Source: Candidatus Delongbacteria bacterium (GTDB lineage: Bacteria; Delongbacteria; UBA4055). Taken from it: DNA of 9,933 nt. The notes under the pieces are model-generated. The model ran no database searches and was not told where the DNA came from. It worked only from the letters and a program-made list of their open reading frames with translations. Both the position numbers and the translations under genes were made by a program. The stretch is taken from contig JAFGUL010000207.1 of the NCBI GenBank assembly GCA_016938535.1, forward strand, positions 1 through 9,933. Direction: 5' to 3'. Position 1 is the stretch's first letter, and every line of letters starts with the position of its first letter. Shown here piece by piece: positions 1-9,933 of the stretch.

Positions 1-1080
1 AACCATAGAATTATAAATATAATTGACAAAATCATCATAATATCCTACAACTTTCCAGAAATCTTTTCTTTTCTGTTTTTCATCCTCAGTTTCCTCGATC
101 ATTCTGACTACTTTTGGCAACAAAGCAATTGTTACATCAAGAATGCCATACACTTCGCCTACTCTATTCATCTCAATCTCAAGTTCTGTAAAAATTTCCG
201 GTCTGCCTTTTAGAGCAGTAAAAAAATCCTGACCATTGCATAACTCACCGATCATTTGTTCTGTTGCAGTCTGTACTTTTTCATCTGCCCATTCGGATGC
301 TATTTCCATACCTTTTGTTAAACTAACACCAGCCTCAAGCAGTAATCCAAAAGTTTTCCAGTACTTTGAACGGGTATTTTTCTGGCCTTCAGAATTGTCG
401 GGAAAGCCAACCTCTTCGAGATGACTACCCAACATGTTCGAAGCTGTAGCCAAATAGTTTATTTCTAAAGAAGTATTTATTACCGATATCTCATGAGAAG
501 CTTCGAGAACAATAATTTCAAGTTCGGTAAATACGGTGCTGTATTTGCTCATTGTGTCATGGAGCGTGTTTCCTTTTATAATTTCGTCAATGAATTCACT
601 AATGACGGCTTTTAATTCGCCGTCTGCATTTTTTGAAGCGATTTTTAAAGAATCTGTAATTGAAACTTTCTCTCTGATCAGTTTAGAGAACATTTTCCAG
701 AAACGGCTTCTATGTTTTGAGGTATTATTTTGGTCATTCATGACAGGCCCCCTTTTTAATTTCTCGTTTATCAGTTCCATTACGAAATTGTATTTATTTA
801 TTTTATTCTCAATAATATCTTTCTGCTTCTCAAGAAGTTCTGCAAGGAATGATTCATCATCCTTATTGTCCACGATTTCCTTTATATCAGAGAGAGAAAG
901 ATCGAACTGTTTAAAGAAAACTATCAGCCTCGCAGTTTCCAGGTTATGCTCGTTATAGTATCTGTACTTTGAAAACTCATCCACCTTTGCGGGTGTCAGA
1001 AGTTCCATTTCGTGATAGATCTTCAGCATTTTCGGCGTAAGATTCGTGATATTTGAGAATTCTCCGATACTGTACAGCAT
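1..1080 (-). CDS. MerR-family regulator fused to tandem soluble T2SSF (GspF/PilC-like) repeats, 3' end beyond window
   Basis: I translated this by hand: 360 codons from ATG at 1080 run without a stop to the left edge, so the C-terminus is missing. A Shine-Dalgarno GGAGGA lies just upstream. Residues 1-70 form a MerR winged helix ('YSIGEFSNITNLTPKMLKIY', then 'KYRYYNEHNL' and 'FDLSLSDIKEIV'), followed by a coiled coil at about 75-112. Instead of a known effector domain, residues 127-205 and 240-318 are ungapped repeats resembling the cytoplasmic domain of GspF/PilC. The second copy shows the family pattern best: 'LLEAGVSLTKGMEIASE', then 'PEIFTELEIEMNRVGEVYGI' and LD. A third copy seems to start at residue 341 (FWK). 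No hydrophobic membrane helix is visible, whereas real GspF has three. I infer a cytosolic DNA-binding regulator whose repeats sense a ligand or protein partner, or drive oligomerisation; the target is unknown. It has its own MerR-type promoter, so autoregulation is likely. The MerR call is firm and the T2SSF call is good by motif, not by search. Confidence 0.85.
   Translation of the reverse strand, partial: MLYSIGEFSNITNLTPKMLKIYHEMELLTPAKVDEFSKYRYYNEHNLETARLIVFFKQFDLSLSDIKEIVDNKDDESFLAELLEKQKDIIENKINKYNFVMELINEKLKRGPVMNDQNNTSKHRSRFWKMFSKLIREKVSITDSLKIASKNADGELKAVISEFIDEIIKGNTLHDTMSKYSTVFTELEIIVLEASHEISVINTSLEINYLATASNMLGSHLEEVGFPDNSEGQKNTRSKYWKTFGLLLEAGVSLTKGMEIASEWADEKVQTATEQMIGELCNGQDFFTALKGRPEIFTELEIEMNRVGEVYGILDVTIALLPKVVRMIEETEDEKQKRKDFWKVVGYYDDFVNYIYNSMV
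739..753 (-). promoter_or_regulatory. Possible internal ribosome binding site and start codon (Met114)
   Basis: Inside the MerR fusion gene, AGGGGG (748-753) precedes an in-frame ATG (739-741) by 6 nt, a normal Shine-Dalgarno spacing. The ATG is codon 114, just after the MerR coiled coil and about 13 residues before the first T2SSF-like repeat. It could start a shorter product made only of the repeats. The AGGGGG also encodes Arg-Gly, so chance is possible. Confidence 0.35.
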
Positions 1081-1110
1081 AACTTCCTCCGTTTTTAATT
1101 GTTTAAATCA

Positions 1111-1141
1111 AAGATAAACATGAACCTTGGGTTCAAGTCAA
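1111..1141 (-). promoter_or_regulatory. MerR-type promoter with 19-bp spacer and central dyad operator
   Basis: Read on the minus strand, TTGACT (1136-1141) and TATCTT (1111-1116) are separated by exactly 19 bp. The spacer contains a perfect inverted repeat TGAACC-3 nt-GGTTCA (1121-1135). An over-long 19-20 bp spacer with a central dyad is the hallmark of promoters that MerR-family proteins activate by DNA distortion (MerR, CueR, SoxR). It lies 30 bp upstream of the MerR fusion gene's start, so the gene is probably autoregulated. No protein binding has been shown; the assignment rests on spacing, dyad and position. Confidence 0.75.
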
Positions 1142-2962: not shown

Positions 2963-4075
2963 TTATTTACCTCCTTCGGAGAGGAACTTTTTAGAGTAGT
3001 GGATAGAGACGAAAAGCATCGGAATGAAAATAATATACTGAGATAACGAAAACAGCGGAATATCTAATTGAATTGGATCTTGAAAATCGTTTGTCATAAT
3101 TACAGATGTCAACCAGATAAATATTCTCAAACAATTTTCCATGCAGTAGAACAGAACAGGGAGGAGAACAATCAAAGAAAGACTTTTGATAAGCTTTCTC
3201 ATTCCACAGAACTTCCACAAGTAGTAACCCAAAGCACTGAATATCATTGTTATTAAAAAATGGAACAGAAAGAATTTCGGGACCACATCGGATATCCTAT
3301 CTACATAACTTTCGGGCCATCTTCCGGGGAGAGCATACACAAATATGTTTTTTGCGATTAAATCATTTACCGATTCCCAAAGAAGAGCTATGCTGATCGG
3401 GAATATCAATGCGAGTGGGATAACTAATAATTCATGTAGCCTGACTTTATTTTTCAACCTAATTTTCTCAATAGCTACTGTAATGAAAGAAAGAAGGATC
3501 AGTAATCCGTAAATGTAACCGGTTTTCTGAGAATCATATCTCGCATAAAGTAGCTCAAGTGTCGCATTTCCGTGAATTATATACATTCCAAAAACCCAAA
3601 CTAAAAAAAGTATGAAAGCTTTCCTTGTGCTTTTCAGTAAAAAAAATAATGGGAGAACAAAAATTGCGACCCGTAGCACTCCAAGTAGCGAAACATTGAT
3701 AGAATCTAAAAGAGTTTCGTATCCTTTGGCGGCTCCGAAAATACTCATTACTACCGAAAGTAGATGTTCCGTCAAAACTCCAATCCCGAAGAATATAATC
3801 AGCATGATATATTTCTGTATAACGATCTGAGATTTGCCTATTGGTAACGAAGCCTCTTGGACATGAAGTCTTCTGCCGTCGGATGATCGCATAAGTTCGT
3901 AACCAAGCAGCAATGTCACCAAAGGAATTATCATAAAAGGAATCATCATCATTGTTTTATGCGTATATAAAGAGTAGCCTGAAATAATGAGGAAGAAAAA
4001 TAGAAGTATACTTAGCGGGATCATCCAGATCTTTTTCTCTAAAACTTTTATATCAGCCATTATCAACTTAAACAT
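2963..4075 (-). CDS. ABC-2 type transporter permease (first permease of the operon)
   Basis: This is a 370-residue multi-pass membrane protein with about ten hydrophobic helices (first ones near residues 17-36, 43-60 and 88-106). The loop at 60-89 ('ELMRSSDGRRLHVQEASLPI' onward) has the E-x-x-R ... S-L-P-I-x-K pattern of ABC2_membrane_5-type permeases. It is a paralogue of the next gene, most clearly at the N-terminus ('MFKLIMADIKVLEKKIWMIP' here). The start has GAGG 8 nt upstream and lies 15 bp after the ATPase stop, so the two are co-transcribed. The C-terminal half (about 210-360) holds further helices beyond the minimal 220-residue permease fold, a longer form than the third permease. Probable role: membrane subunit of an exporter energised by the adjacent ATPase. 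Confidence 0.82.
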   Translation of the reverse strand: MFKLIMADIKVLEKKIWMIPLSILLFFFLIISGYSLYTHKTMMMIPFMIIPLVTLLLGYELMRSSDGRRLHVQEASLPIGKSQIVIQKYIMLIIFFGIGVLTEHLLSVVMSIFGAAKGYETLLDSINVSLLGVLRVAIFVLPLFFLLKSTRKAFILFLVWVFGMYIIHGNATLELLYARYDSQKTGYIYGLLILLSFITVAIEKIRLKNKVRLHELLVIPLALIFPISIALLWESVNDLIAKNIFVYALPGRWPESYVDRISDVVPKFFLFHFLITMIFSALGYYLWKFCGMRKLIKSLSLIVLLPVLFYCMENCLRIFIWLTSVIMTNDFQDPIQLDIPLFSLSQYIIFIPMLFVSIHYSKKFLSEGGK

Positions 4076-4090
4076 TTTACTTTCCTCACT

Positions 4091-4942
4091 TTACTGGTTC
4101 GACATATAGACCATCATCTGCTCGAGGGTCGGTTTTTCGACTACTACCTCGAACTGCGAGAAAATGCTCTGCTTTTCCACGTTGCAGAGAGCTTCGAAAC
4201 CGAAGCGGTTCTCTTTAACTCCGAGAAGTTCCCTGCGGATGTCGTTTGTGAGTATCCCTGTGTCGCCTTTGATGATCTTGTAGTTTTCGAGCAGCACGTC
4301 CTTCTGGTCGGAGAAGACGATCCTGCCGTTATTGATGAATGTGATGTAGTCGGCTATCTTTTCAAGGTCGGAAGTGATGTGCGTCGAGAAAAGAACGGAT
4401 TTGTTCTCGTCCTGGATCTCCTCGCGCAGGATGTCCATCAGTTTATCGCGGAAGACGGGATCGAGACCGGAGGTCGGTTCGTCGAGGATCAGTAGTTCGG
4501 CGTTGTGAGAAAGGGCTACAGCAAGCGAGAATTTCATTTTAGTACCTTTTGAGAGATCCCGTATTTTTTTATTTGGGAGGAGGCCGAAGATCTCGCAGTA
4601 TTCATCGAATTTACCTTCGTCCCACCTGCTGTAGAACGGCGCGATTATCTCTTTCATTTTCTTAACGGTCAGGTGCTCATAAAAATAGCTTTCCTCATAT
4701 ACGAAGCCGATCCTGTCCTTTATCGCGACCTCGTCCTTTTCATTGTCCATTCCGAATATTTTTATGTCGCCCGAATCCTTCTTCAACAGATTCATTATTA
4801 ATCTTATAGTGGTCGTTTTTCCCGCTCCGTTCGGTCCGATAAATCCCATAATATAGCCTTTTTCCAGGCCGAAACCGATGTTGTCCAGCTTAAAACCTTC
4901 GAACTCTTTCGTTACCCCGTTGATCTCAAGTATTTTACTCAT
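4091..4942 (-). CDS. ABC transporter ATP-binding protein (YtrB-like)
   Basis: This 283-residue cytoplasmic ATPase drives the three permeases encoded after it. Walker A is GPNGAGKT at 36-43, Walker B LLILDE at 150-155, D-loop SGLD at 158-161 and the switch histidine H188 in 'STHI'. The ABC signature is LSKGT (130-134) rather than LSGGQ, and the Q-loop position reads E83 in 'IGFVYEES'. Such variants are seen in GntR-linked exporter ATPases, and the catalytic glutamate E155 is kept, so it should be active. Residues after about 205 form the short C-terminal extension typical of ABC-2 export ATPases. The ATG lies 2 bp after the GntR stop, with its GGAGG Shine-Dalgarno inside the last GntR codons, which implies coupling. 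Cargo unknown. Confidence 0.95.
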   Translation of the reverse strand: MSKILEINGVTKEFEGFKLDNIGFGLEKGYIMGFIGPNGAGKTTTIRLIMNLLKKDSGDIKIFGMDNEKDEVAIKDRIGFVYEESYFYEHLTVKKMKEIIAPFYSRWDEGKFDEYCEIFGLLPNKKIRDLSKGTKMKFSLAVALSHNAELLILDEPTSGLDPVFRDKLMDILREEIQDENKSVLFSTHITSDLEKIADYITFINNGRIVFSDQKDVLLENYKIIKGDTGILTNDIRRELLGVKENRFGFEALCNVEKQSIFSQFEVVVEKPTLEQMMVYMSNQ

Positions 4943-4944
4943 AA

Positions 4945-5319
4945 TTACACCTCCTCATATAGCGCGTCGAGCATTTCTTTCAGCTCACTTTTCTTTAATC
5001 CGAGCATCTTAGCCTCATCAACAGCTTCCGAAAGCCTGTTCTCGATGATCTTGAGCTTTTGTTCTTTAATAAATTCCTTATTCTGATGTGCTACGAAAGT
5101 ACCTTTCCCGCCGACGGTCTCCAGAAAGCCTTCGCGCTCAAGGTCCTCATAGCTTCTCTTTGTGGTTATCACACTGATCCTGAGGTCTTTCGCCAGGTTC
5201 CTTATTGACGGAAGAGCATCGCCTTCTTTCAGTTCGCCGGTGATGATCATTCCCCTGATCTGATCGGATATCTGCTTATAGATCGGGTCGGGTGAAGAGT
5301 TTCTTATTATTATTTTCAT
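4945..5319 (-). CDS. GntR-family transcriptional repressor, YtrA subfamily
   Basis: This is a 124-residue DNA-binding protein. Residues 12-76 form the GntR winged helix: 'PIYKQISDQIRGMIITGELK', then 'LPSIRNLAKDLRISVITTKR' (36-55) and the wing 'GGKGTFV' (70-76). Only about 48 residues follow, a short helical tail (about 80-124), which is the size and architecture of the YtrA subfamily rather than of FadR, HutC or MocR types with large effector domains. YtrA proteins usually sit first in an ABC-exporter operon and repress it, as here. The start is preceded by GGAGCG at a 4-nt spacing. A sigma-70-like promoter with an inverted repeat overlapping the likely transcription start lies 29-76 bp upstream and is its probable own target. 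The inducer is unknown; Bacillus YtrA responds to cell-wall antibiotics. Confidence 0.93.
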   Translation of the reverse strand: MKIIIRNSSPDPIYKQISDQIRGMIITGELKEGDALPSIRNLAKDLRISVITTKRSYEDLEREGFLETVGGKGTFVAHQNKEFIKEQKLKIIENRLSEAVDEAKMLGLKKSELKEMLDALYEEV

Positions 5320-5468: not shown

Positions 5469-6617
5469 CTAGTAATCGTAAACGTCTATTACATTCTTTT
5501 CCCTGTCGAGGTAGTAAAGTCTGGTTCCGGAAAAGATCACATCACTTCTTACCTGCCATAATAAGCCTATCGTACTTTTGTCCATAAGGTCGTAACTGAC
5601 CCGGTTCAGGAATATCCCTTCCTTGAAGATGTCGATGTAAACCCCGTCTTTATCTTTCAGCCTGTCTATTGAAGGGATCACGAGCAGTCTGCCGTATTTG
5701 TCGGTGTACATTGCATAGATCGCTTTTTTAAAATTATCGATCCTCAATTCAGCGTCTTTCCTCATGTATTTCGACATGTCATCTTTATACTGCGCAAGTT
5801 CATTCTTTTCAAACCTGATCTTCTGATAATCTTTATTAATTTCATACTTTTTATTACCGTCATGGTCATACGCAAGTATCCGGTACTGGTAATCAGAATT
5901 ATCGGAAAGGTATGCATAATTGTCGTCTGTGGCTAAGGAAGCTCGGAAAACGAGCCAATCGACATTTCCGGCCATAAATTCTTCCTGGTTCATCGGATTC
6001 TGCTGAACAGTACTTTTCACAGTCAGTGTTTTCAGATCGATCATACAAAGGTCAAGATTCGCTATTTCTCTATTTTCTCCAAGATTTGGAATAAAAACGA
6101 AGGCTGAAAGGCTCTTTCTCGAAGTAGAGAATTTCTCCCATTGAGGCTGTATCCTGTTTATCTTTTTGCCATACAGGAAATTTCCCTCAAGGTCGAACTT
6201 GCTGATCACTGTCGAGCCGTTACTATAAACATTCAGAGTGTCATTATCCAGATACATTATAGAAGGATCGTAGAATTCGCCCGGTCCCTGACCTTCTCTG
6301 CCGATCGCCATAATGAAGTTGCCTTCGGAATCGTACTTTTTGACATTCGAAGCCATTATGTCGAGAACAAAAATGTTTTTTAATTCATCTTCGGATATCG
6401 AATACGGGTATCTTAAAAAAGCAGTTGAGTCTGCACCTGATTCCGAAGATATTGTGAATGCTTTCTTCAGATCAAGCTTTGCTTCGGGGTCATTTGGCAC
6501 TCCTGTGCTACTGTATAGATTTACTCCGTTGACCTCAGTAACAGTAAAATTCTCGGTTTTACTCGTGCAGCTTAAAAACAATAACGCTACTAATAATGCT
6601 AATATCTCTTTCTTCAT
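5469..6617 (-). CDS. Six-bladed beta-propeller lipoprotein (third of three)
   Basis: This is a 382-residue predicted lipoprotein. The signal peptide 'MKKEILALLVALLFLSC' puts the lipidated cysteine at residue 17, although the lipobox (FLSC) is less typical than in its two paralogues. Residues 106-115 read 'GREGQGPGEF', the signature of the six-bladed beta-propeller family common in Bacteroidota (BF2992/DUF5128 type), and blade-like 'YDSEGN', 'FDLEGN' and 'YDHDGN' turns recur. A PNDP motif at 41-44 and a C-terminal 'YTDKYGRLLVIPSIDR' stretch are shared in pattern with the other two. It is expected on the outside of a membrane; binding partner or enzymatic role is unknown. The ATG has GGAGAG upstream. 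A 133-bp gap separates it from the preceding gene, so it may have its own promoter (TATAAA lies about 20 bp upstream, but without a convincing -35). Confidence 0.85.
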   Translation of the reverse strand: MKKEILALLVALLFLSCTSKTENFTVTEVNGVNLYSSTGVPNDPEAKLDLKKAFTISSESGADSTAFLRYPYSISEDELKNIFVLDIMASNVKKYDSEGNFIMAIGREGQGPGEFYDPSIMYLDNDTLNVYSNGSTVISKFDLEGNFLYGKKINRIQPQWEKFSTSRKSLSAFVFIPNLGENREIANLDLCMIDLKTLTVKSTVQQNPMNQEEFMAGNVDWLVFRASLATDDNYAYLSDNSDYQYRILAYDHDGNKKYEINKDYQKIRFEKNELAQYKDDMSKYMRKDAELRIDNFKKAIYAMYTDKYGRLLVIPSIDRLKDKDGVYIDIFKEGIFLNRVSYDLMDKSTIGLLWQVRSDVIFSGTRLYYLDREKNVIDVYDY

Positions 6618-6750
6618 TCCTGCTCTCCATATTTTATATTTTCTCGTTAAAAAGATATCCGAAATTAAAGAACTGTTGGAGAAAATCCAACCTGATTATG
6701 ACGAACAGCGTATGTTCGAGGATGAAAGTGTGAAAGCGAAGACGAAAAAA
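6618..6750. other. Intergenic gap with hairpin and plus-strand coding-like stretch
   Basis: This 133-bp gap inside the propeller set contains a perfect inverted repeat GTTGGA-5 nt-TCCAAC (6675-6691) without a T-run, so it is not a clear terminator. Read on the plus strand, 6649-6750 gives 34 codons of charged, helix-like sequence ('KKISEIKELLEKIQPDYDEQ' then 'RMFEDESVKAKTKK'). It has no start or ribosome site of its own and could be a remnant of an older gene or chance. Confidence 0.35.
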
Positions 6751-7830
6751 CTAAATCTCCGTATAATCGTAAACTATTATATACTGGTCGGTAACCGCGT
6801 AAATTCTATCTTTCTCGAAGAACAGTTTATGGTCCATAGGGATCGGAATAGTAATGTCTTTTAAATAGACACCGAACTTATAGATCGAATAGACCGGATT
6901 CTCCTTACCTTCGTTCTTATATGTTTTCAGCACCCACAGAATACCGTTCTTATCGGCATAAATATTTTTGACCGTGTTCTTGGACTTTCCTTCACCGAAG
7001 ATTATTTCATCGATTACATCTGGTGCGAGGTTGTAATTTTTATATTTTTCAGTAAGTTCTTTTATTTCTTCAGCGCTTATATCGACTATAGGTGCACGGT
7101 CTTTTATCGTCTGGATCAACTTTCCGTCAAGATCGTAAACTAAGATCGAGATATCCTTTTTTGATTTCTCGTAAAGGTGTATCCTGTCTTTGCCTATAGC
7201 CGTAATTATCAGTTTGAGTACGCTGACGCTCGGGTTTTTTATATAATTCCTGCGTTCCAGAATTGACGCTATTTTATTGATTTCGCTGTCGTATATATTG
7301 ATGCTCTGTATGCCGTAATATTTTTCATCGACCGTTTCATTGCTTACACCAAGTCCGATCATCTTTCCGCCTGCATATCTGATCCAGCTTATGCTGCCTG
7401 AAAATCCGGCCGACCTGATAAAATTCCCGTCCCTGTCGAAGAAAGATATCCTTCTGAGCTGATCGTCTATGATTGAGACTGTATCGCTTACTGCAGCGAT
7501 GTTATATGAGACCTCGAATTCTCCGGGACCCTGACCTTTTCCGCCGAACTTATTTATTATATTCAGATTAGCATCGGTATGAAAAACTGTACAAGACTTC
7601 GAGTCCAGAAGGTAGATATCGTCCGGTGAAACAGCTGTTATGCCTTTGACCGACATGATGCCGTTTTCATGATAATCAGATCTCAATACTTCGGTGATCT
7701 CATATTGAAATGCAGGATCGGTTGGTTCTCCATTGTTGATCTCGTTGACTTTAGAGCTTGGGTTTTCACTTTTTTTCGAGCAGCCTGCTATAGTTATAAG
7801 GAACAGAAAACTGATAAATATGTTTTTCAT
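6751..7830 (-). CDS. Six-bladed beta-propeller lipoprotein (second of three)
   Basis: This is a 359-residue predicted lipoprotein with signal peptide 'MKNIFISFLFLITIAGC', good lipobox IAGC and Cys17. A PTDP motif lies at 36-39, and the family signature 'GGKGQGPGEF' at 96-105. Repeated blade turns ('FDRDGNFI', 'YDLDGKLI') and the C-terminal 'IYADKNGILWVLKTYKNEGK' pattern match its two neighbours, so all three arose by duplication. The fold is a six-bladed beta-propeller; the role in this organism is not known and no catalytic residues can be assigned. Its ATG overlaps the stop of the preceding propeller gene by ATGA, with GGGAG upstream, indicating translational coupling and likely equal expression. 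It probably sits on a membrane facing the periplasm or outside. Confidence 0.9.
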   Translation of the reverse strand: MKNIFISFLFLITIAGCSKKSENPSSKVNEINNGEPTDPAFQYEITEVLRSDYHENGIMSVKGITAVSPDDIYLLDSKSCTVFHTDANLNIINKFGGKGQGPGEFEVSYNIAAVSDTVSIIDDQLRRISFFDRDGNFIRSAGFSGSISWIRYAGGKMIGLGVSNETVDEKYYGIQSINIYDSEINKIASILERRNYIKNPSVSVLKLIITAIGKDRIHLYEKSKKDISILVYDLDGKLIQTIKDRAPIVDISAEEIKELTEKYKNYNLAPDVIDEIIFGEGKSKNTVKNIYADKNGILWVLKTYKNEGKENPVYSIYKFGVYLKDITIPIPMDHKLFFEKDRIYAVTDQYIIVYDYTEI

Positions 7831-8912
7831 TCTCTTTTCTCCCTGATCTTATACTTAGATACGACTACCTTATCTTCGCCTATATAAAATGAATATATCC
7901 TGTCGTTCAGAACTTTGGTTCTTGTTCCGTAATCGAACGACTCATATTCAAGGCTGTCGAGCGTGACTTCATTGACGAATCGTCCATCCTTGAAAACATC
8001 GAATCTGAAATGATCTTTAATGTTTTCTTTGTCGGGAGCATCATCAAAAGCCCGCATTACCCACAGGTTACCTTCGTAGTCTATGTACAGGTTTGAAATG
8101 CTTCTTTTGTATTTTGTACCGAAGAATTTACTCCAAACATCTTTTTTATATTCGAAAGGTATCATCGCGTAGTTCTTATTGATCACGCCTGCAGGTTTTC
8201 CGGATCGATCGTAGATTTCTATTCTGTACCTGTCCGTACGGTTCTCAGCTACATAGATCAGACTGTCTGATACTGCGTAAGGGATGCGGGATTTGAAAAA
8301 TATAAAATCCTCCGTTTCACCGCTGTCGCAAATATCGATCTTAATCTTGAATTTGTCGTCAAGGAGCGTAAGTTTCGATCTGCCCGTCATGATTTCGTCA
8401 GTTTCAAAAAGCTCAATACTTTGAGAAACGAACATTCCGTCCCTTACAACGAAAGTATGCGATTGACTGATAGCCGGGTCAAGGGATGAATTGATGAATT
8501 CTCCGTCAAGTGTGAACCTGTTCAGTGATTTATTGGCGGAATCGGTTACGAACAGTGTGTCATTTACGATAAATATGTTATTCGGATTAGTCAGTTCTCC
8601 GGGTCCGCCTCCCATACCTGCGAAATCTTTGATGTAATCAAGGTTACTGTCATATTTAATTATCTTACAGTTGATGCCCGAAAGAATATATATATTTCCT
8701 TCATCATCTTCAGTGGCGTCCCACGGCATGTCAAGCAGCATGGAAGTTGAGTCGTTCTGTAAAACTTTTTGTTCGATAATTTCTATAGCAAAGTCAGGAT
8801 CAGCCGGTTTTGAGGAGTTGTTGAATACCTGAGGTCCTTTTTCCGCTGCAGAGTTTTTCGAGCAAGATACTATCACAAGTAATACAAATAACAGTAATAA
8901 CAGTTTCTTCAC
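7827..8912 (-). CDS. Six-bladed beta-propeller lipoprotein (first of three)
   Basis: This is a 361-residue predicted lipoprotein that starts with GTG. No upstream in-frame start is evident, and GGAG lies 5 nt before the GTG. The signal peptide is leucine-rich and ends in lipobox IVSC with Cys17. PADP at 36-39 and 'AGMGGGPGEL' at 98-107 (the propeller signature, here with GEL for GEF) follow. Blade-like turns 'YDSNLDYI' and 'FTLDGEFI', and the C-terminal 'LYIDYEGNLWVMRAFDDAPD' region, mirror the two genes after it. It heads the three-gene set, with a predicted promoter about 40-70 bp upstream. Propellers of this family are often found near secreted or polymer-handling proteins, and the gene upstream is a secreted protein, but a functional link is only suggested by adjacency. 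Confidence 0.9.
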   Translation of the reverse strand: MKKLLLLLFVLLVIVSCSKNSAAEKGPQVFNNSSKPADPDFAIEIIEQKVLQNDSTSMLLDMPWDATEDDEGNIYILSGINCKIIKYDSNLDYIKDFAGMGGGPGELTNPNNIFIVNDTLFVTDSANKSLNRFTLDGEFINSSLDPAISQSHTFVVRDGMFVSQSIELFETDEIMTGRSKLTLLDDKFKIKIDICDSGETEDFIFFKSRIPYAVSDSLIYVAENRTDRYRIEIYDRSGKPAGVINKNYAMIPFEYKKDVWSKFFGTKYKRSISNLYIDYEGNLWVMRAFDDAPDKENIKDHFRFDVFKDGRFVNEVTLDSLEYESFDYGTRTKVLNDRIYSFYIGEDKVVVSKYKIREKRE

Positions 8913-8994: not shown

Positions 8995-9933
8995 CTATTT
9001 TATTATCACGAACTTGCCTATGAAATCATCTTTCTTGTCATCGACATCCTGCACGCTGAAGAGATAAATTCCGGACATGACCGCCTGATTGTTGTCGTTG
9101 ATGAGGTTCCACCATGCGCCGTTCTTACCGTAAATGTAAGGGTCGGAATATCTTGCGCTCCCGTTATGTCCGATAGTTTTAACAAGGTCTCCCGCAAGGG
9201 TGTATATCCTGATGACGCATCTTTCGGGCAGATTGAGAAAAGCTATCTTTCTGTCCTGCTCCTCCCATGCCGCGCCGTTCGTGGTTTCCCATCCCATGGC
9301 TTCATAGTCAATATCTCCTCTGTACGGGTTGGGAACGACGATAACGTCTTTTATTGAAGTAAAGCTCGAAGGAACTACCGAAGTTCCGTTTATTGAAGGG
9401 CTGGATTTGAGCGCGGGAACTCCCGTTTTGGGATCGCCGTAGTCAGACGCTGTGACGGCAACGAAATAAGGTCTGGCAGCGAGCTTGTTGTGCAAGACGA
9501 ATTTATAGTTGAAAATTTCGGTGCTCACAATAGAATCAGGAGAGAATGCAATGTCAACAGTGTCCTTCGTGCAGGTATAAGTGTAGATGTCCTGCAAAGA
9601 ATGGTCCGAGTGCAGGTCGCGGTTGTCGCCGAAAGGCGCAAGGTTCCAGACCGATCCGTCAGCGGTGATCGTAACGGGAGACACGGCTGCGCTGTCGGCG
9701 TAGAACGGTATATCGAAGAGTTCGGAAGGATCACCCGCATTGAAATAAGCGTAATTCACCCTGTCCGCGGAAAAGATCTCAGTGAAATTCAAAGCGTTCG
9801 CGTCAGGGGAGATGTGCACCTGATAACCCTCGAAATCCTTCCGCCGGGAGAACTTGTCCGTCGCGTGCTCCGGACCGGATACCGTTACGGCTCCGTCCTT
9901 TCCGTTAAGTTCGTGCGAGCACCACTCTATCGC
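8995..9933 (-). CDS. C-terminal part of a secreted protein with a Por/T9SS-type sorting domain (5' end beyond window)
   Basis: The reading frame is open from the right edge to TAG at 8995, giving 312 visible residues. The GTG at 9819 is not the real start, because coding-like sequence ('RRKDFEGYQVHISPDANALN') spans it. The 'DFEGYQVHIS' and later 'YFVAVTASDYGDPKTG' (about 156-171) segments have the style of the fibronectin-III-like modules of large exported proteins in FCB and allied candidate phyla. The end is a FlgD-like/sorting-type domain: 'VVPNPYRG' (199-206), 'IRIYTLAGDLVKTI' (241-254), 'GIYLFSV' (288-294), and terminal 'GKFVIIK'. Such domains direct export through the type IX (Por) system in Bacteroidota; here that is inferred from pattern only. 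The DNA is much more GC-rich than the ABC operon (38 of 60 bases in 9601-9660). Confidence 0.85.
   Translation of the reverse strand, partial: AIEWCSHELNGKDGAVTVSGPEHATDKFSRRKDFEGYQVHISPDANALNFTEIFSADRVNYAYFNAGDPSELFDIPFYADSAAVSPVTITADGSVWNLAPFGDNRDLHSDHSLQDIYTYTCTKDTVDIAFSPDSIVSTEIFNYKFVLHNKLAARPYFVAVTASDYGDPKTGVPALKSSPSINGTSVVPSSFTSIKDVIVVPNPYRGDIDYEAMGWETTNGAAWEEQDRKIAFLNLPERCVIRIYTLAGDLVKTIGHNGSARYSDPYIYGKNGAWWNLINDNNQAVMSGIYLFSVQDVDDKKDDFIGKFVIIK

Follow-up and report, generated by a model that had tools for sequence, protein, structure and literature searches.

A gene on the minus strand at positions 1..1080 of the window, the whole 9,933-nucleotide stretch of Candidatus Delongbacteria DNA that was analyzed, encodes a MerR DNA-binding domain followed by soluble GspF/PilC-type (T2SSF) repeats, and this one-frame architecture is almost certainly real. 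The fusion is a MerR one-component regulator, and it represents a small family. No description of a regulator combining MerR and T2SSF, or of its sensor domain, was met in the open-access literature searched (most subscription journals lie outside it), which is consistent with the original prediction that no regulator of such an architecture had been described. MerR proteins are known for domains that sense metals, redox state, drugs, or light, and a pilus or secretion platform domain captured as a sensor would be a new type of input for the MerR family.

Architecture and distribution of the fusion family

The frame begins with an ATG at position 1080 on the minus strand, preceded by the Shine-Dalgarno sequence GGAGG (1086..1090, minus strand), and is free of stops to base 1, where the end of the window cuts off the 3' end of the gene after 360 codons. 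A close relative, P0002, comprised 447 aa. In the Pfam search, the window protein matched MerR_1 PF13411 (E 1.1e-12; 48.4 bits, cut-off 21.6) and, in two stretches, T2SSF PF00482 (E 4.8e-17; 62.5 bits, cut-off 25.2), the best T2SSF stretch being residues 243-337. All NCBIfam matches were below the curated cut-offs: the C-terminal half hit the HofC, PilC, and GspF models, and the N-terminal half hit MerR-family models, e.g., ZntR and CueR. In the PDB sequence search, the T2SSF part matched PilC 3jc8 (E 2.7e-9), and the MerR part matched MtaN and BmrR. The TipAS domain PF07739 gave no Pfam row at E values up to 10 in the 360 residues of the window, although few matches above about 0.1 pass the HMMER filters.

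The winged-helix DNA-binding domain occupies residues 3-72 (865..1074, minus strand), as the original prediction stated for the N-terminus and as the Pfam and structure matches confirmed. It is followed by a presumed dimerization helix at about residues 76-108 (757..855, minus strand), placed by the P0002 model and by homology to MtaN 1-106; this region of the P0002 model has low confidence (pLDDT mostly <60).

The occurrence of T2SSF domains after the MerR part, also predicted originally, was borne out by Pfam, profile–profile comparison, and structure, and both motifs on which it was based were located in the fusion protein (LLEAGVSLTKGMEIASE, residues 247-263; RVGEVYGILD, residues 306-315). 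The implied number of repeats was two, but the complete relatives have three. On the minus strand, repeat A lies at 394..711 (residues 124-229) and repeat B, which contains GE..G.LD and accounts for the best Pfam stretch, at 82..375 (residues 236-333). Repeat C starts at 1..72 (residues 337-360) and lies mostly beyond the end of the window; it is complete in the longer relatives (411-470 aa), which contain the three repeats in tandem. With hhalign, repeat B matched PilC Cyto1 at E 1.2e-17 and Cyto2 at E 3.4e-8, repeat A matched repeat C at E 4.7e-15, and Cyto1 outscored Cyto2 against all three repeats. In the structural comparison, the T2SSF part of the model clearly matched only the cytoplasmic domains of GspF, PilC, and TcpE; AlbA, TipAS, and V-ATPase subunit C, which may still be similar, did not appear among the matches.

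Transmembrane segments, a hallmark of GspF/PilC platforms, were not seen by Kyte–Doolittle hydropathy in the eight fusion members examined, as had been noted for the window protein. The maximum 19-residue value was 0.99-1.55 in these members versus 2.74-2.95 in 10 PilC proteins of the phylum (12 loci were taken, and L042 and L045 were left out as PilB frames). With a profile match above the gathering score and the six-helix Cyto fold, sequence comparison and modeling show the predicted C-terminal half as three tandem soluble PilC-Cyto1-like six-helix bundles.

The first database search retrieved 32 proteins, and the profile search retrieved 51 among the 7,996 candidates scored, which were those sharing the most words at 0.55-1.75 of the query length. 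A third search using the divergent member P0034 as the query retrieved three proteins, all of them family members. According to the Pfam lists, MerR and T2SSF occurred together in 26 proteins including that of the window (P0001-P0024, P0033, and P0034); the fragments P0025-P0028, P0030-P0032, and P0035 were left out, as was P0029 (209 aa), which contains the MerR part and the first T2SSF residues. As the 25 further proteins carry both domains and align along their length, the fusion is not a sequencing chimera, and the clean frame of 360 codons had been read correctly. The named source organisms were Candidatus Delongbacteria, except for one protein labeled Clostridiales. The non-family matches of the profile search were, in 18 of 18 cases (P0036-P0053), MerR proteins with a GyrI-like domain (PF06445), the length limits having barred short MerR proteins from appearing.

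The fusion was found in five of the 13 Delongbacteria genomes, with the phylum taken from the record titles (four of the five carrier records read "Delongbacteria" and one only "bacterium"). T2SSF exceeded the cut-off in 12 of the 13 genomes. The non-fusion frames were 401-421 aa in length, plus one of 379 aa and one of 311 aa, and no T2SSF architecture other than PilC/GspF-type frames and the fusion was found in the 13 genomes. In the tree of the 26 members, P0008 and P0015 were placed apart; since both lie on what is presumed to be the same 11,318-base contig, paralogues of the fusion seem to exist within one genome. Searches of mobile elements gave no tblastn match (E up to 1e-5) to the T2SSF part of L001 among 72,556 plasmid and 50,697 phage records. 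In viral contigs, none of the 42 stretches with the peptide pattern encoded a relative, and the promoter pattern described below did not occur.

Conservation differed along the protein. The mean identity in the five carrier genomes was 54, 59, and 60% for the three repeats, 80% for each of PilC Cyto1 and Cyto2, and 86% for the MerR domain. The GE..G motif of repeat B was well kept (E in 26 of 31 rows and both G in 31 of 31). In repeat C, GE was mostly kept (G 26/30, E 26/29), and in repeat A it was partly kept (G 12/31, E 18/31). The family alignment contained indels in repeats A and C. A stretch of ~23 residues (IAES...SAD.ET.AVLPD) was duplicated inside repeat A of P0014, P0021, P0022, P0024, and the fragment P0035, which suggests a recent expansion.

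The surroundings of the gene also varied. Its upstream neighbors in the window, all on the minus strand, are three ABC-2 type permease-like genes (1169-1846, 1843-2961, and 2963-4075, the first with matches below the cut-off) and an ABC ATPase gene (4091-4942), preceded by a gene for a PmtR-like GntR-type regulator (4945..5319; below the NCBIfam cut-off). The same order was seen by eye in locus L002, another ABC transporter was present in L004, and the upstream genes of L001, L003, and L005 differed from those of the window. Downstream of the fusion, we found YefM/YoeB in L001, an ATPase fragment in L002, a Sel1-repeat protein in L003, and AbiEi/AbiEii in L004; L005 ends inside the fusion gene. 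This pattern suggests an accessory gene whose neighborhood varies. A role in a defense system was considered and rejected, as YefM/YoeB, AbiEi/AbiEii, and the PDC-S01-type ATPases of L001, L003, and L005 show only these variable surroundings; relative P0002 matched no PADLOC model at E values up to 0.001.

Further along the window, 5469-8912 encodes three tandem lipoproteins with similarity to a six-bladed propeller (PF17170; only the first exceeded the cut-off). They were dropped as candidate partners, as eight Delongbacteria genomes contained 4-22 such matches each. The region 8995-9933 encodes a protein truncated by the window end whose C-terminus weakly resembles PorZ and PorU of type IX secretion, with scores far short of the cut-offs.

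Private promoter and candidate short form

Upstream of the start codon lies a MerR-type promoter (1111..1141, minus strand), in which the −35 element TTGACT (1136-1141) and the −10 element TATCTT (1111-1116) are separated by a 19-bp spacer (1117-1135) with the dyad TGAACC-CAA-GGTTCA (1121-1135, minus strand). The promoter reads TTGACT-N19-TATCTT in the window and TTGACT-N19-TACATT in the five other genes; the spacer was 19 bp in six of six fusion genes, and TGAACC-N3-GGT occurred within it in the window and the five genomes. A simple dyad score was 7 of 10 for the window, 6 for L001, L002, and L005, and 4-5 for L003 and L004. MerR promoters typically have a spacer of 19-20 bp that contains a palindrome (passages of PMC10189885).

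Allowing up to two mismatches, the promoter pattern was found at one site per genome in five of five carriers (control, 0). As the pattern was derived from the fusion-gene sites, the presence of this match is by construction, and the informative part is the lack of extra sites: none was found at other genes at up to two mismatches in the five carrier genomes, the completeness of which is not stated. The window contained one match at up to three mismatches (chance mean 0.00), and the looser pattern with three mismatches gave 10 other sites over the five genomes compared with five control hits. The operator of AlbA is likewise reported in passages of PMC10189885 to occur nowhere else in its genome. 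These sequence features make it very probable that the fusion gene is under private autoregulation by predicted DNA binding of its own product. Between the −10 element and the start codon, a second inverted repeat (ATTGTG..A.CACAA) was seen by eye in L003, L004, and L005 and not in the window, L001, or L002; it is possibly a further operator or a hairpin.

Since no second operator was found at up to two mismatches, pilus genes do not seem to be targets of the fusion. The repeats could bind the housekeeping PilB/PilT or the PilC ring, such that the regulator reports the assembly state of the type IV pilus. PilC-type T2SSF and a PilB-type hit of at least 360 bits each occurred in 12 of the 13 phylum genomes, and the repeats are most similar to PilC Cyto1. 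However, the pilus genes had no promoter site at up to two mismatches, the repeats evolve much faster than PilC, and the fusion is present in five of the 13 genomes while pilus genes are present in 12, and we consider a housekeeping pilus partner improbable.

The junction between the two halves contains a Shine-Dalgarno-like AGGGGG (748..753, minus strand) upstream of an internal ATG at codon 114 (739..741, minus strand), a candidate start of a T2SSF-only product that stands just before the first repeat. Its duplex energy (−10.7) was the best among the internal ATGs of the window gene. This ATG and an upstream AGGGGG, GGAGG, or AGGAG were present in five of the six genes, L002 being without both, and in five of six the duplex energy was the best or joint-best of 28-36 internal ATGs, with ties in the window (an overlapping out-of-frame ATG at codon 115 sharing the site) and in L004 (another ATG). 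Met 114 was found in 22 of 25 rows scored (25 of the 26 two-domain proteins, P0012 being left out) and was replaced in P0003, P0007, and P0009, within a linker that had a mean identity of 47% in the five genomes. As other Met columns were equally conserved, the conservation of Met 114 alone is insufficient, and the argument lies in the combination of Met and ribosome site. The fragments P0026, P0027, P0030, P0031, and P0035 lie on contigs of 1,120-1,815 bases; their common start at Met 114 may reflect contig truncation.

The internal start may alternatively be the fossil of a separate T2SSF gene, with the repeats merely oligomerizing the regulator or persisting as a barely constrained leftover of the fusion event. 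The position of the ribosome site at the junction would fit this, as would the fast divergence of the repeats and the indels in repeats A and C. A fossil ribosome site should decay, yet the site is present in five of the six genes. Furthermore, 11 residues of repeats A and B (R124, F127, W128, A152, D153, F184, T185, E188, W232, W255, and D257 in P0002 numbering) were invariant in the 31 rows of the alignment, which includes members at 40-42% identity and omits P0012, and this argues for a function. A fossil or leftover therefore appears quite unlikely. We slightly favor a functional short T2SSF-only form, the product being deduced from its start site, and the circuit of private autoregulation with a probable short form is well supported at the level of sequence.

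Candidate ligands of the repeats

In the proposed mechanism, the MerR half would sit as a dimer on the private promoter with its over-long 19-bp spacer, before its own gene, and the three PilC-Cyto1-like bundles would take the place of the ordinary MerR effector domain. Contact of the bundles with their partner would make the dimer twist the promoter and activate its own gene, by analogy with the MerR family. From the ribosome site and ATG at the junction, a free T2SSF triple repeat would also be made, which could hold or titrate the partner, following the logic of TipAL/TipAS and AlbA/AlbAS. The partner would be a T2SSE-type ATPase; PilB is one candidate, but the stand-alone PilB-like ATPases encoded in these genomes are the likelier one. 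A T2SSE-type ATPase is the most likely partner because the Cyto domains of GspF have been modeled as binding the N2 domain found in these enzymes; both PulF Cyto1 and Cyto2 contact PulE N2D in an AlphaFold-multimer model from the literature (PMC10790770). An ATPase as the ligand is plausible at somewhat below even probability, and the explanation as a whole, i.e., an autoregulated one-component sensor including the ATPase ligand, is likewise tentative.

In the L002 locus of genome G002, a PilB-like frame begins 204 bp past the fusion stop on the same strand, just before the region encoding N2D, and runs for 82 codons to the contig end. It scored 25.3 bits against the T2SSE cut-off of 24.9 and 60.5 bits with the profile of the stand-alone ATPases; in a direct comparison, it was closer to the stand-alone ATPases (62.0 bits) than to PilB (51.2 bits). 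Such an ATPase neighbor was found at one of the four carrier loci with a readable downstream region (L002, and not L001, L003, or L004). The stand-alone PilB-like ATPases (three in G003, two in G005, and the fragment in G002; none found in G001 and G004) are about 400 aa in length, carry the Walker A motif G....GK[ST], were seen by eye to be without the N-terminal domains of PilB, and are mutually diverse (44-55% identity to the first row). They occurred in three of five carriers versus none of eight non-carriers (Fisher p 0.035, post hoc and uncorrected for kinship or missing sequence, for a few related genomes of unstated completeness), or in two of five carriers without G002, which is counted on a fragment only because the L002 frame is cut after 82 codons.

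In G003 and G005, stand-alone PilB/GspE-like ATPases of about 400 aa occur in runs interleaved with propeller lipoproteins (L141 in G003:C131, 3728-8663; L142 in G005:C121, 2-3637); these ATPases start with MLNAE, and some have unusual Walker A loops. In the housekeeping PilB of the phylum (about 720 aa), nine of nine frames with a complete N-terminus (L082, L083, L084, L095-L099, and L101) showed by eye an N-terminal receiver-like domain with I.IDDDD.LRE..., so pilus extension may be phospho-controlled.

With their lower identity than PilC and the MerR domain, the repeats hardly match what a conserved PilB partner would lead one to expect. A sensor that drifts while its DNA-binding domain and promoter stay constant fits a varied ligand, which may be the stand-alone ATPases or a small molecule. 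Both roles put forward in the original prediction, sensing of a secretion or pilus component and reuse of the fold for ligand binding, thus have circumstantial support; the promoter, the internal start, and the third repeat were not part of that prediction. In the more specific form of the ATPase proposal, the fusion would sense stand-alone cytosolic PilB-like ATPases outside any filament, and the short isoform would act as a decoy titrating the ATPase; we regard this combination as rather doubtful. The absence of the internal start from L002, the very locus that has the ATPase neighbor, and the partial retention of GE in repeat A count against the proposed mechanism.

The repeats may instead enclose a toxic or signaling molecule as a TipA/AlbA-like sensor and trap, with the PilC fold reused as a scaffold. 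Ligand binding would activate the private promoter, and the full-length and short proteins would mop up the ligand. The circuit resembles that of AlbA, with a 19-bp spacer, a palindrome reported as unique in the genome, and, as a candidate in the fusion, a shorter product that is devoid of the DNA-binding domain (passages of PMC10189885, PMC7762955, and PMC6078987). AlbAS has two six-helix repeats. The repeats diverge fast while the DNA-binding domain and promoter are nearly fixed, the 18 non-family MerR matches among the length-limited candidates all had the GyrI-like PF06445, and the fusion is preceded by ABC transporter genes in the window, in L002 (by eye), and in L004 (its ATPase by eye). 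The gene order of L002 is that of the window, however, so the ABC association amounts to two cases at most, and the upstream genes of the other three loci differ. AlbA and TipAS, which may yet be similar, were not among the structural matches, and we know of no small-molecule ligand of a T2SSF domain. Such a sensor and trap is a possibility that we rate as somewhat unlikely, and we consider an ATPase to be a slightly more likely ligand than a small molecule.

If the ligand is an ATPase, an interface of a filament machine would have been turned into a transcription switch, and the fusion would provide a soluble handle on the GspF–GspE contact, whose membrane setting makes it difficult to investigate. 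If the ATPase is of the stand-alone type, T2SSF and T2SSE filament parts would form a soluble regulator–ligand pair. If the ligand is a small molecule, the repeats would add a new fold to those that capture ligands in the manner of TipA and AlbA. Because the promoter is private, the ligand question can be addressed directly by a reporter, whichever ligand applies.

Comparison with known regulators and platform proteins

The TipA class (TipAL/TipAS and SkgA; PF07739) shares with the fusion a MerR domain, an all-helical sensor, and a promoter of its own (passages of PMC7762955). TipAL and TipAS are made from two starts, the second in-frame start giving the sensor-only form (passages of PMC7762955 and PMC6078987), which in the fusion is a candidate only. 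The fusion differs from this class in having T2SSF (PF00482) instead of TipAS and in having three repeats. AlbA, with its shorter product AlbAS (passages of PMC10189885), shares the promoter with a 19-bp spacer, the palindrome reported as unique in the genome, the tandem six-helix sensor, and, as a candidate in the fusion, the short product (passages of PMC6078987 and PMC10189885), but its sensor belongs to another domain family and has two repeats rather than three.

BmrR, EcmrR, and MtaN share the DNA-binding domain and, for residues 1-110, rank among the nearest solved structures. The relatives of BmrR carry a GyrI-like effector domain, whereas the fusion carries the T2SSF repeats. V-ATPase subunit C is described in passages of PMC10790770, from which alone the likeness is taken, as having three tandem six-helix domains resembling PulF Cyto1. 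EpsF, OutF, PulF, PilC, and TcpE share with the fusion the six-helix Cyto1 fold, the sequence family, and the GE..G of repeat B. Unlike the GspF/PilC platforms, the fusion has no transmembrane segments that could be seen, three cytoplasmic domains instead of two, and an attached DNA-binding domain.
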